A stretch of 64,000 bases of DNA from Bacteroidia bacterium (lineage in GTDB: Bacteria; Bacteroidota; Bacteroidia; SpSt-205): NCBI GenBank assembly GCA_026414975.1, contig JAOAHZ010000007.1, positions 1 to 64,000 of the forward strand, read 5' to 3'. Shown piece by piece: positions 46,841-53,097 of this stretch. Every line of letters starts with the position of its first letter. Position 1 is the stretch's first letter. The notes under the pieces are model-generated. The model searched no databases. It was given only the letters and a program-made list of their open reading frames with translations, and had not been told where the DNA came from. The position numbers were made by a program, and so were the translations under genes.

Positions 46841-48550
46841 TCATCGCGCCCACTTCTGGAGTTTCTCTCGGGCGAGCCGAGCATATAGGCTGCCAGGCAG
46901 CTCTCGTAGGAGACGCTCGTAATATTGAGCTGCTTCCTTGGGAGTGCGACTCAGCTCCCCCAGTAGATAAAGCGCCTCATCGCGGTATAGGCTTTCTGAG
47001 TCAGGATAGTCAGCCAAAAGAGTCAAGTAAGTCCGGGCTTGAGCGCTATCCCGCTGAGCGAGACAATGTTGGGACTTAAGCCACAGCACATCATCAGTAA
47101 TAGGATGTCCGCGATAGACTTTCTCCAACGAGTCCAACAGCCGAAAGGACTCCGCCAAGCGACCCTGATACCGCAGAAGCTCAGCCCGAGCAAACTGATA
47201 CAGGGGCTCAGAAAGGGTATCCGGCTTCAGATTATCTTCTATATGCCAAAAGAGCTGGATGGCATCGTTAGAGAGGTCATCTTGGGTATCGTATTTGAGG
47301 AGGCGCAAACGCGTCTTGGCCAGCTCAAATTCCCCCTGAAAGTATGCCAAGCGTGCTAACTGATAATATACTTCGCTTTGCCAGGTAGACTGGGCTAATC
47401 GGGTTTCCACTTCTAAAAGATAGAGTCGGCTTCGGGTGAAGTCGCCTCGCTGCATCGCAGCCTCAGCGAGGAGAAGGTATTTTTGGGCAAGAGCGGCCGC
47501 CGTAGGCGGGTCAAAAGTTTCCATGAGCCGTAGCACCGAATCAGCCTCTCCCAAGCGAAGGTGCCAGCGGGCTTTCTCTAAGCGAAGCGCTGTCGAGTAG
47601 GGAGACCTCTTCAACAACGAATCTACCAGAGCCAGGGCGCGGCGAGGCTCACGCAAGATAGCTTCTGCCTCAGCAAAGCGAGCCAGCGCCGTGTTATAAT
47701 ACGGGCAGACTTCTCCTACCGTAAGAAGCAAGCGGAAGGCCTCCACAGCGGTAGAGAAAAGGCCGCGTTCATAAGCCATCCAACCCACCTCATATAGAGG
47801 ACGACAGTCGCGCTCTAAACGAAAGGCTGCCCGAGCGTATCGCAGAGCCTCCGAGTAGTTTTCTGTCAAGAGATAGAAGCGCAGCAAAAGGATAGCGTAA
47901 GCGGGATGTGGGGCGTTCTGCCAAGACTCTAAAAGCGATAGCTCTACACTATCCGCTGAGACCCCATCTTCTAAGTATCGCTTGAGTACGGAGAAGAGGG
48001 TGTCGACCGGAATAGCTTGAGCTTGCCAGAAGAGGAGCCATTCCCGCCAAGCAAGGTGAAGCAGTCTATCCCGCTCATAGGAGAGAATAAGGGCTTCGGC
48101 GTAAGCATGCGGCAAGGGATTGAGGCGGCGTGCTGAGATAAGGGCTACCCGCTGCCAATCTAATCGTCCCCAGACTCGCTGAGCAACCTCCGCCATAGCC
48201 TCTAAGGTGGGTAGAGCTAAATCATTACGCTCAACCAAAGCCTGCCATTCACGGTCGGTGCTTGTGTCGCCCTCTAAGGACCGACGACGCAGCTCCCAAG
48301 CACTTCCCCAGACCGATAATTTACCTTTCTGACGCTCGGTTTGCACCCATTTTCCATACTCATTCACCTTTTGTTGCTGTAAGAGGCATTCTACCGCATA
48401 GGTACCCCATAGATAGTCTTTAGTGCGATCAAAAAGTCGCTTGAAGTGCGGGTAGGCCTCCTCGTATCGCCCCATGCGGAAAAGCTCCACAGCGGGGCGA
48501 GGGTCCTGAGCCCAGAGGCCAGTCCATACAAGAAGAAGAGCTTTTCTCAT
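46841..48550 (-). CDS. Exported TPR-repeat protein
   Basis: 569-residue exported protein. The signal peptide ends LVWTGLWAQ. The rest is almost all helical with repeated TPR-like pairs of about 34 residues, for example FRMGRYEEAYPHFKRLF, RFYLLTENYSEALRYARAAF, LVDSLLKRSPYSTALRLEKA and YLLGELSRTPKEAAQYYERL. No enzyme motif is visible. TPR proteins of this sort in Bacteroidota act in outer-membrane assembly and gliding (GldK/N partners, BamD), but I cannot name it. It starts 4 nt inside the end of rseP, so it is coupled to it. Confidence 0.85.
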   Translation of the reverse strand: MRKALLLVWTGLWAQDPRPAVELFRMGRYEEAYPHFKRLFDRTKDYLWGTYAVECLLQQQKVNEYGKWVQTERQKGKLSVWGSAWELRRRSLEGDTSTDREWQALVERNDLALPTLEAMAEVAQRVWGRLDWQRVALISARRLNPLPHAYAEALILSYERDRLLHLAWREWLLFWQAQAIPVDTLFSVLKRYLEDGVSADSVELSLLESWQNAPHPAYAILLLRFYLLTENYSEALRYARAAFRLERDCRPLYEVGWMAYERGLFSTAVEAFRLLLTVGEVCPYYNTALARFAEAEAILREPRRALALVDSLLKRSPYSTALRLEKARWHLRLGEADSVLRLMETFDPPTAAALAQKYLLLAEAAMQRGDFTRSRLYLLEVETRLAQSTWQSEVYYQLARLAYFQGEFELAKTRLRLLKYDTQDDLSNDAIQLFWHIEDNLKPDTLSEPLYQFARAELLRYQGRLAESFRLLDSLEKVYRGHPITDDVLWLKSQHCLAQRDSAQARTYLTLLADYPDSESLYRDEALYLLGELSRTPKEAAQYYERLLRELPGSLYARLAREKLQKWAR

Positions 48551-49854
48551 AGTCGCCGCAAATCATTCCAGAAAGCAAAAATCATCAAAGCCAAAATGAA
48601 AGCCAGTCCTATATACTGAGCTACTTCTCGGAGACGATATGAGGGTTCGCGCCGAAAGAGCGCTTCTAATCCCAAGAAGAGCAGATGCCCTCCGTCCAAT
48701 AGGGGTATGGGGAGTAGATTCATGAAAGCTAAAATGAGGCTGAGAGCTGCTGTGAAAGCTAAAAAGCCAAGCCAGCCGCTGGTTTCGAAGGTGCGTCCGG
48801 CCACTCGGGCGATACCAATAGGCCCGGCGACACTCTCTGAGATGCGGGCTTGCCCCGTGATAAGATAAACGAGGGCCTTAAGATTGGCGGCTGTTATGCG
48901 ATAAGCCTGCGAGACTGCCACACCCATTGCATCGGAAAGGGATAAGGTCCGTATCTCCTGGGGCAGTTCTACAGCAGGAAAGGCTTGGAGGCGATAAGCG
49001 GTGTCCAAGCGGACTCCCACCTGGAAGGAGGAGGTTCCCCGGCGCACTTCCACCACCACAGAGTCGCGACGCAGCTTTTGGAGGATCTCCCTCATATGAC
49101 TGAAACTGCTCACGAGCTCCCCCTCTATACGGAGGACTAAGTCTCCCTTTTGCAAGCCAGCTCGGGCTGCGGGCCCACCCGGCACCGGCTCTATCTGCGC
49201 TGGCAGCCTCAAAGCCAGTACCTCCCTACCCCGCCCGTACAAACTCAGCAGACTATCCCGTACAGAAGGAGACACACCGAGAGAAAGCGTATCCTTGCCT
49301 CGTAAAATCGTTAGAGTGGGGTGTTCAGATAAGAGCCATTCAGGCGAAGAAACGACATCTAAATAGGCCGGCTCACCATTCACCGCTAAAAGGCGATCGC
49401 CGGTTTGAATGCCAAGTAAGGGCTGCGCTTCTAATCCTAACTCCCAGCGCATGAGCGGTACTCGTCGTATACCCGACAGATAGAAAATCCCCGTTAGAAC
49501 CAGCAAGGCATAAAGGACATTCATGAGAGGGCCCCCAGCTATCACTAAGGCTCGCTGAGGCAAAGGCTTTGCTCGAAACTCATCCGGAGCAGGCGCAGAA
49601 GGAAGCCCGCCTCGCTTGCCAAGCTGACTCTCATCCACCATTCCAGCTATCTTCACGTACCCACCCAGCGGTAGAATCCCAATCCCATATTCCGTATCCT
49701 TGCGCTTCCAACTCCATAGCTTGGTGGGCCAGTCAAAGAAGAGATAAAACTTCTCCACGCGCATCCCAAAGGCCTTGGCTGGCAGAAAGTGGCCCAGCTC
49801 GTGAATGATAATGAGCAGGCTCAGCGCCAGCACAAACAGTCCCAGTGTTACCAC
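48547..49854 (-). CDS. rseP: Site-2 intramembrane protease RseP
   Basis: Inner-membrane zinc metalloprotease that cuts membrane proteins within the bilayer; in E. coli it acts in the sigma-E envelope-stress pathway. The zinc motif HELGH is at residues 18-22, near the end of TM1. A PDZ domain lies around 210-290 (PGGPAARAGLQKGDLVLRIEG), and the second catalytic motif is in LLPIPLLDGGHLL near the C-terminus, with a last TM after it. The start is GTG at 49854. The TPR gene downstream overlaps by 4 nt. pspA and fbp lie upstream in the same direction. Confidence 0.95.
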   Translation of the reverse strand: MVTLGLFVLALSLLIIIHELGHFLPAKAFGMRVEKFYLFFDWPTKLWSWKRKDTEYGIGILPLGGYVKIAGMVDESQLGKRGGLPSAPAPDEFRAKPLPQRALVIAGGPLMNVLYALLVLTGIFYLSGIRRVPLMRWELGLEAQPLLGIQTGDRLLAVNGEPAYLDVVSSPEWLLSEHPTLTILRGKDTLSLGVSPSVRDSLLSLYGRGREVLALRLPAQIEPVPGGPAARAGLQKGDLVLRIEGELVSSFSHMREILQKLRRDSVVVEVRRGTSSFQVGVRLDTAYRLQAFPAVELPQEIRTLSLSDAMGVAVSQAYRITAANLKALVYLITGQARISESVAGPIGIARVAGRTFETSGWLGFLAFTAALSLILAFMNLLPIPLLDGGHLLFLGLEALFRREPSYRLREVAQYIGLAFILALMIFAFWNDLRRL

Positions 49855-49863
49855 ACCCGAATA

Positions 49864-49881
49864 TAACGAAAAGTTTCGTTA
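49864..49881. repeat. Short interrupted palindrome upstream of rseP
   Basis: TAACGAAA-AG-TTTCGTTA, two perfect 8-bp arms. It spans the stop codon of the 81-residue ORF and lies 10 nt before the GTG of rseP. It looks like an operator half-site pair, but coding constraint covers 3 bp of it and it may be chance. Confidence 0.4.
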
Positions 49882-50124
49882 GAGTAAGGACTTGTCCGAA
49901 GGGGGGGGCGTGGATTCTGGGTCAGAGGGCTGGGACGAAGAAGGGTCATCTAAAGTCTCAGCGAGACCAAGCCCCCGCAGCGAGGCTTCCATTTGTTGCA
50001 GATGCCACTCGGCCTTTTGGCGTAGGGCGTGGCGACGAAGCTGCTCCAAGATAGCCTTTCGCTCTAAGAGGTCTTTCTTGTAAAATGCCTTGAGGCTTTC
50101 GTACTCTTCTGGGGTGTAGGGCAT
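49879..50124 (-). CDS. Small charged protein encoded next to pspA
   Basis: 81-residue protein of unknown function. The first 45 residues form a charged, helical stretch (YESLKAFYKKDLLERKAIL). The rest is a Pro/Ser/Asp-rich tail that ends PPPSDKSLL. The adjacent PspA ends in a similar way, EPTDKHSLL. Start codon and pspA stop overlap by 1 nt (TAATG). It lies between pspA and rseP on the same strand, so it may be part of the same envelope-stress module. No cysteines or signal peptide are seen. Confidence 0.7.
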   Translation of the reverse strand: MPYTPEEYESLKAFYKKDLLERKAILEQLRRHALRQKAEWHLQQMEASLRGLGLAETLDDPSSSQPSDPESTPPPSDKSLL

Positions 50125-50855
50125 TATAGGAGAGAATGTTTGTCGGTGGGTTCTGAAATACCCTGTTGGGGTGGAGGCGGGGCAGCCTCTAAGCCCAGCT
50201 CAGATTTCAGGCGAGCCAAGGACTCTCGGGCTTGAATGCGCTCCATTTCCTCATCCACTTTGAGTCGGGAGGTATCTATGCTCTCTATAGCTAGTTCTAA
50301 ACGAGCCTCATACTTAGCAGACTTTTCTTGGAGGCGCCTTACCATTTCATCGTGGGTTTGATCTATGCCCCCTACCTCAAACTGCTCAAACGCTTCAGCG
50401 ATTTGAGCCTGCCATTTAGCACGTTCGTACTGCTGGAGAGCAGCGCGAGCTTCTTGGATTTTTCGTTCCCGCTCACGCATGAAGAGCTTCTTGACTTCTA
50501 AGGCTTTTTCGTAAGCTCGGCGAGCAGCTTCTAACTCCACTTGGGTTTGAGCGATGCTTTGTTTGAGCTTTTCTATCCGAAGGGCGTACTGTTCAGCCAA
50601 ATCTTCCCGATTTTGACTAAGGGCAGCTCGCACGCGAGCTATGAGTTCGTTGTACTCTTTCTGATATTTCTCTATTTCGCGCTCAAGCAGGGTAACCGTC
50701 GCCTTCACCGAGGCGATGTGTTCATTCATTTTAGGGACTTGCTCATTGAGCTCACGGATATTTTGCTCTAAAATCAGCTTGGGGTCTTCTATGGTCTCCA
50801 CGGCTTTGCCGAGGAGGGCGCGTATAGCCCGCTTAAGTCGCTTCCACAGGGACAT
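50124..50855 (-). CDS. pspA: PspA/IM30-family membrane-maintenance protein
   Basis: 243-residue coiled-coil protein of the ESCRT-III-like PspA/IM30 superfamily, which binds and stabilises stressed membranes. The N-terminal amphipathic helix MSLWKRLKRAIRALLGKAVE is followed by the family segment EDPKLILEQNIRELNEQ and long helices to about 215. The last 25 residues are Pro-rich and end EPTDKHSLL. It overlaps fbp by 23 nt upstream and touches the 81-residue ORF downstream. No PspF-type regulator is seen. Confidence 0.93.
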   Translation of the reverse strand: MSLWKRLKRAIRALLGKAVETIEDPKLILEQNIRELNEQVPKMNEHIASVKATVTLLEREIEKYQKEYNELIARVRAALSQNREDLAEQYALRIEKLKQSIAQTQVELEAARRAYEKALEVKKLFMRERERKIQEARAALQQYERAKWQAQIAEAFEQFEVGGIDQTHDEMVRRLQEKSAKYEARLELAIESIDTSRLKVDEEMERIQARESLARLKSELGLEAAPPPPQQGISEPTDKHSLL

Positions 50856-51834
50856 CTTCGTTCAGAAAGGCAGTTACACGATCTATTTCAGAAGCTGGAC
50901 CCAAGAAGAGAGGCGTACGCTGGTGGATAGCCGTCGGCGTTACATCCAGTAGCGAGCAAGTCCCGTTGGTGGCCTTACCGCCTGCTTGTTCAGTTAGCCA
51001 AGCCATCGGATACCCTTCGTACAAAAGGCGGAGCTTGCCCTCTGGTTTTTTCAAGGTGCCAGGATACATGAAGAGGCCGCCCTTAAGGAGGTTGCGGTGA
51101 AAGTCCGCTACTAAGGAGCCTACATACCGAAGAGAAGGAGACTGAGGAGCTTTGCGGTTATGAGCATGAAGGTCTGCTACATAACGCTGAAGACCAGGAG
51201 CCCATTCGTGGAGTTGATTGTCGTTGAAGGAGTAGTAAGTAAGTTGGGGGGGCATTTGGACTTGAGGGTAGGTTAGAAGAAACTCCCCTGCCGCTGGTTC
51301 TAAAGTAAAGCCATGAACACCTTGCCCCGTAGTATAAAAGAGGAGGGTGCTCGTCCCGTATAGAATGTAACCCGCAGCAACTTGCTTTCGCCCCCCTTGT
51401 AGAAAGTCAGCCTCTGTGCAAGGTGTGCCCGAAGGCGTAAGCCGTCGATACACGGAGAAAATAGTCCCAACAGGTACGCCCACATCTATGTTGGATGAGC
51501 CATCCAGCGGATCCAAGAGAACAACATACTTGCCGTCGGGATTGAGCGGGAGAATCTCATCCTCTTCCTCCGAAGCCAGACCTGCCACATGAGGGTTTTT
51601 AGAGAAAAGATTTATAAGCAGGCGATTGGCCATAGCATCCAACTTTTGGACACTTTCACCCTGTATATTGGTCAGGCCGAGCTCGCCTAAGAAGCCAGCG
51701 AGGGAAGCCCGCCGAAGGTAGAAGCTAACGAGCTTAGCTCCAAGACTCAGGTCTCGAAGGATTTTAGAGAAGGCGCCTGTGGCTCCCTCAAACTCCTGCT
51801 GGCGATCAGCAATAAACTGCTCCAGCGTAACCAT
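50833..51834 (-). CDS. fbp: Fructose-1,6-bisphosphatase, class I
   Basis: Cytoplasmic gluconeogenic enzyme, 333 residues. The metal-binding core is LDPLDGSSNIDVGVPVGTIF, preceded by GLASEEEDEIL and followed by the substrate region with GGLFMYPGT and PMAWLTEQAGGKATNG. The start is ATG 51834 with VTLEQFIADRQQEF, the usual class I N-terminus. That ATG is 1 nt after the 3' end of tRNA-Ser, leaving no room for a ribosome-binding site. pspA follows with a 23-nt overlap. Confidence 0.96.
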   Translation of the reverse strand: MVTLEQFIADRQQEFEGATGAFSKILRDLSLGAKLVSFYLRRASLAGFLGELGLTNIQGESVQKLDAMANRLLINLFSKNPHVAGLASEEEDEILPLNPDGKYVVLLDPLDGSSNIDVGVPVGTIFSVYRRLTPSGTPCTEADFLQGGRKQVAAGYILYGTSTLLFYTTGQGVHGFTLEPAAGEFLLTYPQVQMPPQLTYYSFNDNQLHEWAPGLQRYVADLHAHNRKAPQSPSLRYVGSLVADFHRNLLKGGLFMYPGTLKKPEGKLRLLYEGYPMAWLTEQAGGKATNGTCSLLDVTPTAIHQRTPLFLGPASEIDRVTAFLNEDVPVEAT

Positions 51835-51835
51835 G

Positions 51836-51923
51836 CGGAGGGAGAGGGATTCGAACCCCCGAGCCCGCTTAGCGAGCTACCTGATTTCAAGTCAGGCCCG
51901 TTCGACCACTCCGGCATCCCTCC
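51836..51923 (-). tRNA. tRNA-Ser (TGA)
   Basis: The 88-nt class II tRNA has acceptor GGAGGGA/TCCCTCC, anticodon stem CCTGA/TCAGG enclosing CTTGAAA (anticodon TGA), a long variable arm (GCTCGCTAAGCGGGC) and T-arm CGGGGG-TTCGAAT-CCC. The discriminator is G and CCA is not encoded. The fbp start codon follows after 1 nt. Confidence 0.96.
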
Positions 51924-51927
51924 ACAG

Positions 51928-51935
51928 CAAAAATA
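51928..51935 (-). promoter_or_regulatory. -7 promoter box TATTTTTG for tRNA-Ser
   Basis: TAnnTTTG match on the minus strand, 4 nt before the mature 5' end of tRNA-Ser. It would also drive fbp and the genes after it. Confidence 0.5.
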
Positions 51936-51948
51936 CGACAAGCCTGCT

Positions 51949-51956
51949 TATATTTG
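51949..51956 (+). promoter_or_regulatory. -7 promoter box TATATTTG for porV
   Basis: TAnnTTTG match on the plus strand, 22 nt before the porV ATG. This is the one protein gene with a clear box and a longer leader. Confidence 0.55.
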
Positions 51957-51978: not shown

Positions 51979-53097
51979 ATGCGAAGCCACATCGTACCAC
52001 TTGGATTACTCATCACTTGTGCATACGCCCAAGCTCAATCTAACCCTGCAGGTCAGATTCGGGCTATCACAACGGCTGTTCCATTCCTTCTGATTTGTCC
52101 CGATGCCCGAAGTGGGGGCATGGCAGAAACCGGCGTCGCTCTACCGCCAAACATGTACAGCATGCACTGGAATGTGGGAGCCTTGGCTTTAGCCGAAGAA
52201 AGAGGAGGTATAGCTTTCTCGTATACCCCCTGGCTGCGCGCACTTGGGATTGGCGATATCAATCACTTCTACCTGCCAGGCTATGCCCACTTAGGGGAAA
52301 AAGCGGGTACTATCGGTGCATCCATGACCTTTTTTAGCTTAGGGCGAATAGAATTCACAGACAACGCCGGCATCAAAACAGGCGAGTATGATGCAAATGA
52401 GTTTTCTTTCTCCGCTGGGTACAGTCGCCTCTTAGCCAGTAACCTGTCAGCGGGCGTTGCTCTCAAATACATTCAAAGTAACCTCACAGGTGCTACCACG
52501 GTGGGAGGGCTTACGACTCAGCCTGGCCGCTCTGTCGCTGGTGACCTCGGGTTATACTACCAAAAAGACTTCACCCTCAAAGTGCGCCCTCAAGCCATCC
52601 CGACCACCTTCCGATGGGGTGTCAGCTTATCTAATGTCGGCGCCAAAATGGCTTACACCGCTTCTGGACAGCGCGACTTCATTCCAACCAACCTACGCTT
52701 GGGTTACTCCTTCACCTTCAAAATAGATGACTTCAACAGCTTTACGCTCGCAAATGATTACAACAAGCTGTTAGTTCCCTCGGCGGGAGGTGCGGCCCAA
52801 GTTCCCCTCTTGGAAGGCATGTTCAAGAGTTTTGGGGATGCCAGGGGGGGATGGCGGGAGGAGCTATCTGAAATCTACTGGAGCATTGGAGCTGAATACG
52901 ACTACAACCGCCTTTTCCGCGTGCGGGGGGGTTTTTTCTACGAGGACCCCATGAAGGGCAACCGGCGATTCATCACGCTGGGAGCAGGCATCCATTTCCG
53001 CCGTTTAGGATTAGATTTAGCGTATCTTAATTCCCTTGTACAAAACCATCCCCTGCAGAATACCTTACGCTTCACCCTGTATCTGTCGTGGCAGTGA
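51979..53097 (+). CDS. porV: Type IX secretion outer-membrane protein PorV (LptO)
   Basis: Outer-membrane beta-barrel of the FadL/PorV type, 372 residues, needed in the T9SS to hand cargo from the translocon to the PorU sortase. The signal peptide ends CAYAQ (Gln18). Next come ITTAVPFLLICPDARSGGMA and ALPPNMYSMHWN, the well-conserved PorV start, and EERGGIAFSYTPWLRALG. Later strands include SLSNVGAKMAYT and the C-terminal LDLAYLNSLVQNHPLQNTLR. It diverges from tRNA-Ser and its 3' end overlaps lpxB by 26 nt. The PorU-like gene is 27 kb away. Confidence 0.93.
   Translation: MRSHIVPLGLLITCAYAQAQSNPAGQIRAITTAVPFLLICPDARSGGMAETGVALPPNMYSMHWNVGALALAEERGGIAFSYTPWLRALGIGDINHFYLPGYAHLGEKAGTIGASMTFFSLGRIEFTDNAGIKTGEYDANEFSFSAGYSRLLASNLSAGVALKYIQSNLTGATTVGGLTTQPGRSVAGDLGLYYQKDFTLKVRPQAIPTTFRWGVSLSNVGAKMAYTASGQRDFIPTNLRLGYSFTFKIDDFNSFTLANDYNKLLVPSAGGAAQVPLLEGMFKSFGDARGGWREELSEIYWSIGAEYDYNRLFRVRGGFFYEDPMKGNRRFITLGAGIHFRRLGLDLAYLNSLVQNHPLQNTLRFTLYLSWQ

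Follow-up and report, generated by a model that had tools for sequence, protein, structure and literature searches.

The class I fructose-1,6-bisphosphatase gene (fbp) of a Bacteroidia bacterium begins a single nucleotide after a tRNA-Ser gene on the same strand, and this arrangement poses the question of how the fbp mRNA acquires its 5' end and how ribosomes start on it. A sequence-only reading of the region had proposed that the tRNA, fbp, the PspA-family gene and the genes after them are made as one transcript, from which tRNA 3' processing by RNase Z would create a nearly leaderless fbp mRNA. We report a computational analysis of this locus in the window, that is, the whole stretch of 64,000 nucleotides analysed (contig JAOAHZ010000007.1), in the remainder of the host genome (G000, a 2.2-Mb Bacteroidia MAG) and in related genomes. 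The observation on which the earlier proposal was founded is confirmed, and its interpretation is supported on every point that sequence can test.

The tRNA-Ser/fbp junction and its predicted transcription unit

The acceptor stem of the tRNA comprises 7 bp (GGAGGGA/TCCCTCC) and is followed by the discriminator G51836, by C51835 and then by the ATG of fbp at 51834 (Table 1); ARAGORN extends the 3' end of the tRNA to C51835 and Infernal ends it at G51836. With a gap of 1 nt there is no space for a leader between the two genes or, as had been noted, for a promoter, and no room for a terminator. It had also been stated that CCA is not encoded, which holds for the complete triplet, though its first nucleotide, C74, is encoded and is the spacer C51835 itself. 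A partial CCA of this kind raises the question of where RNase Z cuts, and the encoded C74 could slow the cleavage. We considered C74 as a signal specific to the lineage and rejected the idea since it is general in the sampled Bacteroidia, being encoded in 39/45 tRNA genes of the host, in a further 41/43, and in 27/28 and 31/34 of those in the class controls; C75 and A76 are usually not encoded. The host possesses an intact RNase Z gene (G000:C57:64963-65853).

The ATG at 51834 is the true start of fbp. The frame remains open for 14 codons upstream, within the tRNA (a 347-aa open frame), and a longer start is impossible because none of these codons is ATG, GTG or TTG. Furthermore, residues 1-326 of Fbp align with positions 4-331 of the class I FBPase profile, the match beginning at residue 1, and the N-terminus in outgroup proteins lies only 1-7 residues earlier, so the N-terminus is the normal one for enzymes of class I. 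The sequence directly preceding the start, CTCCCTCCGC, is without a Shine-Dalgarno motif.

Table 1. Coordinates of the tRNA-Ser/fbp unit in the window
Feature	Position	Strand	Remarks	Evidence
TAnnTTTG (-7) promoter box, TATTTTTG	51928..51935	minus	predicted transcription start 51923 = tRNA nucleotide 1	
tRNA-Ser(UGA)	51836..51923	minus	single copy, discriminator G51836	ARAGORN; Infernal RF00005 58.1 bits
Spacer C between tRNA-Ser and fbp	51835..51835	minus	single nt = C74 of partial CCA; RNase Z cut predicted just before or after	
fbp, class I fructose-1,6-bisphosphatase	50833..51834	minus	333 aa, ATG start; predicted near-leaderless mRNA	NF006778 E=3.7e-128; PF00316, PF18913
pspA, PspA/IM30-family gene	50124..50855	minus	overlaps fbp 3' end; predicted same transcript as fbp	PF04012 E=1.3e-23
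81-aa ORF	49879..50124	minus	predicted same transcript as fbp	ORF list
rseP-like site-2 metalloprotease (M50 + PDZ)	48547..49854	minus	predicted same transcript as fbp	PF02163 E=3.8e-58
TPR protein gene	46841..48550	minus	probable last gene of fbp unit	TPR Pfam matches

In Flavobacterium psychrophilum the motif TAnnTTTG occupies positions -12 to -5 relative to mapped transcription starts (PMC9723704). The claim that the box in front of the tRNA is the only promoter box stands for perfect copies of this motif: it is the sole one on the minus strand between 46839 and 53267, none lies between fbp and the rseP-like gene, and the next one, at 46839-46832, follows the TPR gene. The 81-aa ORF has no Pfam match. 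The sequence seems to leave co-transcription of tRNA-Ser and fbp as almost the only option.

By the -12 rule, transcription of tRNA-Ser is predicted to start at nucleotide 1 of the tRNA. The box likewise lies at -12 for Ser(CGA), Asn and Lys(CUU), and near -16 for most tRNAs; owing to the position of the box, the four tRNAs of the first group may carry no 5' leader for RNase P, and a 5' leader of about 4 nt is predicted for most others. A loss of RNase P, which tRNAs possibly starting at nucleotide 1 would suggest, was considered and rejected, as the RNase P RNA is present (RF00010). On the opposite strand, a TATATTTG box (51949-51956, plus) is found 30 nt before a PorV-like (type IX secretion) gene at 51979, and this box and the tRNA-Ser promoter stand back to back within 55 bp.

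Conservation of the junction and the wider set of tRNA-gene pairs

tRNA-Ser(UGA) precedes fbp in all 12 family genomes, comprising 11 genus genomes (the host included) and one member of another genus. The gap between discriminator and ATG is 1 nt in ten of these genomes, 2 nt in G006 and 3 nt in G005; the gaps were read from the sequences themselves because at a few loci (L087, L089 and L092 among them) the automatic acceptor-stem parse is displaced by one base. Every family genome has a TAnnTTTG box upstream of the tRNA, which by the automatic tRNA parse lies at -11 to -13 in all genus members and at -18 in the member of the other genus, and changes in the codons just after the ATG are largely synonymous across the family. 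A scan of the fbp loci of an order-level relative and 17 class-level relatives revealed no tRNA before the gene, and in several of these relatives fbp has a TAnnTTTG box of its own, 24-40 nt ahead of the start codon. Since the tRNA is absent from these relatives, the junction looks like a derived trait of the family.

The layout is real, as had been described, but fbp is not alone in having it: at least ten tRNA-gene pairs share it across the family. All 45 tRNAs of the host genome were located with Infernal, their surroundings were read, and they were grouped into 34 tRNA units. A long ORF starts 8 nt or less after the last discriminator in 11/34 units of the host and 10/33 units of G005, a complete genus relative, and in 0/26 and 0/27 units of two class-level controls; the gap is 1-4 nt in 10/34 and 9/33 units, respectively. 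Start codons opening an ORF of at least 130 aa occur at 0.55% of positions per strand, and for 10/34 units with such a start at an offset of 0-4 the binomial P is about 2e-8. On the divergent 5' side of the same tRNAs there are 0 (host) and 1 (G005) ORF starts within 4 nt.

Ten pairs are common to the host and G005: Ser-fbp, Val-dxr, Leu-tig, Arg-rplY, Gln-prs, His-DUF2480, Asp-ligA, Met-osmC, Phe-phoD-like and Thr-cytochrome. One further pair, Thr(GGU) with a 199-aa ORF at +4, was dropped from the shared set as it is not kept in G005. The paired genes were identified by NCBIfam or Pfam: dxr matches TIGR00243 from residue 1, rplY encodes L25, tig gives a weak but clear match to its N-terminal domain, the partners of Met, Phe and His are an OsmC protein, a PhoD-like phosphatase and DUF2480, and the Thr partner is a multihaem-cytochrome-like lipoprotein with a weak family match. 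The start codons are backed by profiles matching from residue 1 (Dxr, L25, Fbp) or by signal-peptide-like N-termini.

We traced seven pairs through the family genomes and obtained a total of 72 family junctions of 10 nt or less. Val-dxr is found in 10/10 genomes, always with a gap of 1 nt and a TTG start (junction CTTG), and Arg-rplY in 11/11, always with 2 nt and the junction CTATG. Leu-tig is present in 11/11, with 1 nt in 8; Gln-prs in 10/10, with 4-5 nt; His-DUF2480 in 8/8 testable genomes, with 0-1 nt; and Asp-ligA in 10/10, with a looser gap of 1-10 nt. Gaps of 4-10 nt at prs and ligA amount to short leaders rather than none. The TTG start used next to the tRNA, by dxr in all ten genomes and by tig in most, is a feature in its own right, UUG being an uncommon start codon for a near-leaderless mRNA. 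The dxr match of G007 is split between reading frames (G007:C3:264549-265673) and the RNase Z gene falls into two pieces (G007:C6:124386-125280), both probably sequence errors of that MAG.

Beyond the family, where the tRNA surroundings of G012, G047 and G052 were sampled with partial coverage, the Leu-tig gap is 2 nt in G012, 6 nt in G015 and 57-73 nt in G014 and G019, and the Gln-prs gap is about 10 nt in G012 and G013. By this comparison the Leu-tig and Gln-prs pairs are apparently older than the other pairs, and the spacer between tRNA and gene seems to have shrunk step by step. In the order-level relative G012, an ORF whose N-terminus reads as histidyl-tRNA synthetase (hisS) lies 4 nt downstream of tRNA-His, so that this tRNA is joined to the putative gene of its own synthetase.

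These distances bear on the possibility that compaction of the genome is all there is to explain: the tRNA and the gene would be co-transcribed and the tRNA excised, and the tight spacing would simply be what deletion bias leaves in a streamlined genome whose ribosomes can start on leaderless messages, and would carry no regulatory meaning. We regard this as a serious possibility and give it slightly less than even credence. The window is about 90% coding and same-strand genes often overlap by 4 nt, and in a genome so compact tight spacing may need no regulatory reason; the drift of the ligA gap from 1 to 10 nt and the wider Leu-tig and Gln-prs gaps in outgroups, as if from gradual shrinkage, also fit. 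However, dxr (1 nt, 10/10), rplY (2 nt, 11/11) and fbp (1 nt, 10/12) keep their exact spacing at 63-87% protein identity, and about ten different tRNA-gene pairs sit at 1-4 nt. Our confidence in compaction does not exclude the route proposed below, because the same transcript and the same cut fit both.

Leaderless expression and the predicted route to the fbp mRNA

Whether a message that begins at its start codon could be translated here depends on the habits of the lineage. In sequences of the host and G005 the distance from TAnnTTTG box to start codon clusters sharply, with its mode at exactly -12 (18 cases). Boxes at -15 to -11 were counted 33 times before the start codons of 139 ORFs and 0 times before 397 internal codons; these statistics come from a crude ORF caller (ORFs of at least 150 aa, any start in the first 40 codons), which makes the percentages approximate. 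As a box at -12 would place the start of transcription on or next to the start codon, leaderless mRNA is predicted for roughly a quarter of the ORFs tested. In a separate set of genus loci around fbp the box lies at -15 to -10 in only 3/57 ORFs, a low figure perhaps reflecting that many of these genes are inside the fbp operon. There is no excess of Shine-Dalgarno motifs before the ORFs (1/105 against a background of 1). The peak for the box in outgroup Bacteroidia is at -27 to -33, from which leaders of about 15-21 nt would follow. Studied Bacteroidota have median 5' UTRs of 24-32 nt and 4-6% leaderless mRNAs (PMC9723704, PMC7366714), the leaderless share being 3.7% in B. thetaiotaomicron (PMC7366714) and 5.5% in F. 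psychrophilum (PMC9723704).

Leaderless mRNA thus looks normal in this lineage, unlike other Bacteroidia, and its ribosomes appear adapted to 5'-terminal start codons. To ribosomes of this kind, a message that RNase Z has released with 0-1 nt ahead of its AUG would be an ordinary substrate. The near-leaderless fbp mRNA of the earlier proposal would not be an oddity here, where many ordinary genes look leaderless too.

From the layout we infer a route comprising one transcript, RNase Z as the cutter, leaderless translation and linkage to growth rate. RNA polymerase would start at the tRNA-Ser promoter with tRNA nucleotide 1 as +1 and read through into fbp, pspA and probably the rseP-like and TPR genes, giving a single primary transcript. 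Once the tRNA has folded, RNase Z would cleave 3' of either G73 or C74, and the CCA-adding enzyme would complete the CCA; endonucleolytic processing is favoured because exonucleolytic trimming would need a prior cut inside fbp. The downstream product would be an fbp mRNA reading (C)AUG..., with a leader of 0-1 nt and a 5' monophosphate, on which initiation would follow the leaderless route that many ordinary mRNAs of the lineage appear to use. In the uncut precursor the AUG would lie against the acceptor stem and be poorly accessible, so that translation would come after maturation of the tRNA 3' end. We consider it quite probable that one promoter and one transcript serve both genes in this way, with RNase Z releasing the tRNA and a near-leaderless mRNA. 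A 5' monophosphate, as the processed mRNA would bear, is usually a destabilising end, and this counts against the mechanism. A strong fold acting as a regulatory leader was also considered and rejected, the tRNA-fbp stretch folding little better than shuffles (z = -1.1).

Alternatively, fbp could be translated while the tRNA is still attached to the transcript, through internal ribosome entry or after the acceptor stem has opened, in which case tRNA processing and translation would compete. The sequence leaves room for this, and Bacteroidota initiate without Shine-Dalgarno motifs (PMC6847099), but initiation in this phylum favours unstructured RNA upstream of the start, and here a 7-bp, mostly G-C stem lies 1 nt from the AUG. 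With a stem so stable one nucleotide away, translation before the cut is unlikely, and we judge this alternative improbable.

Very improbable, finally, is an unrecognised promoter inside the tRNA gene giving a separate leaderless fbp mRNA and leaving tRNA and fbp independent: it would need only a box 12 nt before the ATG, in a lineage where leaderless transcription from -12 boxes is common, but the acceptor stem dictates the letters at -12 to -5 of fbp, CTCCCTCC, which are unlike TAnnTTTG, none of 88 tRNAs contains a perfect box (the scan registers perfect boxes, and promoters departing from the consensus would escape it), and about ten tRNAs of differing sequence would all need such a hidden promoter.

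Under the RNase Z route, the promoter in front of the only Ser(UGA) tRNA of the genome would have to be constantly active, there being no second copy, and fbp would follow the demand for the tRNA. Together with nine more genes, through other tRNAs, it would be linked to tRNA transcription and probably to growth rate.

Relation to known systems and significance

In mitochondrial punctuation tRNA genes and protein genes lie next to each other, separated by a few nucleotides or none, and excision of the tRNAs yields leaderless or near-leaderless mRNAs that have no Shine-Dalgarno motif; tRNA excision as the normal route to mRNA 5' ends is a textbook mitochondrial trait. For animal mtDNA PMC4633059 cites Montoya 1981 and Stewart 2009. 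The family resembles this system in that tRNAs directly flank protein genes with almost no spacer, that excision is predicted to give near-leaderless mRNAs and that Shine-Dalgarno motifs are lacking. It differs in that each tRNA unit has its own bacterial promoter on a 2-Mb chromosome and that tRNAs do not set most of the mRNAs apart: a protein gene directly follows only about a third of the tRNA units, and the majority of genes stand in ordinary operons or behind their own promoters. The arrangement would thus work like punctuation but is, on its gene organisation, not a member of the mitochondrial system.

The thrU-tyrU-glyT-thrT-tufB operon of E. coli and Salmonella places tRNAs and a protein gene behind one promoter (PMC6134099), as is predicted here for a tRNA and a housekeeping gene. 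However, the thrT-tufB gap of E. coli is 114 nt (NC_000913), enough for an ordinary leader, whereas the family gap is 1-10 nt in about ten units, and no leader is possible at 1 nt. Leaderless mRNAs are known from Actinobacteria, Deinococcus-Thermus and archaea (PMC3160421, PMC4633059, PMC4681348), and the messages predicted here would share with them a start codon at or a few nucleotides from the 5' end and a fixed distance to the promoter box; classical leaderless mRNAs are primary transcripts, whereas the tRNA-linked ones would be products of processing. Plant dicistronic tRNA-mRNA transcripts, which derive from nuclear genes and are proposed mobility signals (PMC8166872), also unite a tRNA and a protein gene, as predicted here, but without an abutting start codon. 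In the open-access literature, precedents for tRNA punctuation, tRNA-mRNA operons or tRNase Z with leaderless mRNA come from mitochondria, plants and archaea, and no such bacterial case was found.

We lean moderately towards the broader proposition that the family is largely leaderless and that tRNA 3' processing forms the 5' ends of some ten housekeeping messages, those of fbp, dxr, tig, rplY, prs and ligA among them; these messages would be coupled one-to-one to tRNA synthesis as a bacterial counterpart of mitochondrial punctuation. If this is true, a bacterial lineage repeatedly makes mRNA 5' ends by tRNA excision, otherwise a mitochondrial trait, and would show how punctuation may evolve from ordinary tRNA operons through shrinkage of a spacer that is unnecessary because the ribosomes would start on leaderless messages. 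One could then use the pairs, as they occur in nature, to test whether transcription of tRNAs tunes metabolic and translation genes. Leaderless mRNA, moreover, seems frequent in this Bacteroidota family, whereas the members of the phylum studied so far have 4-6%.
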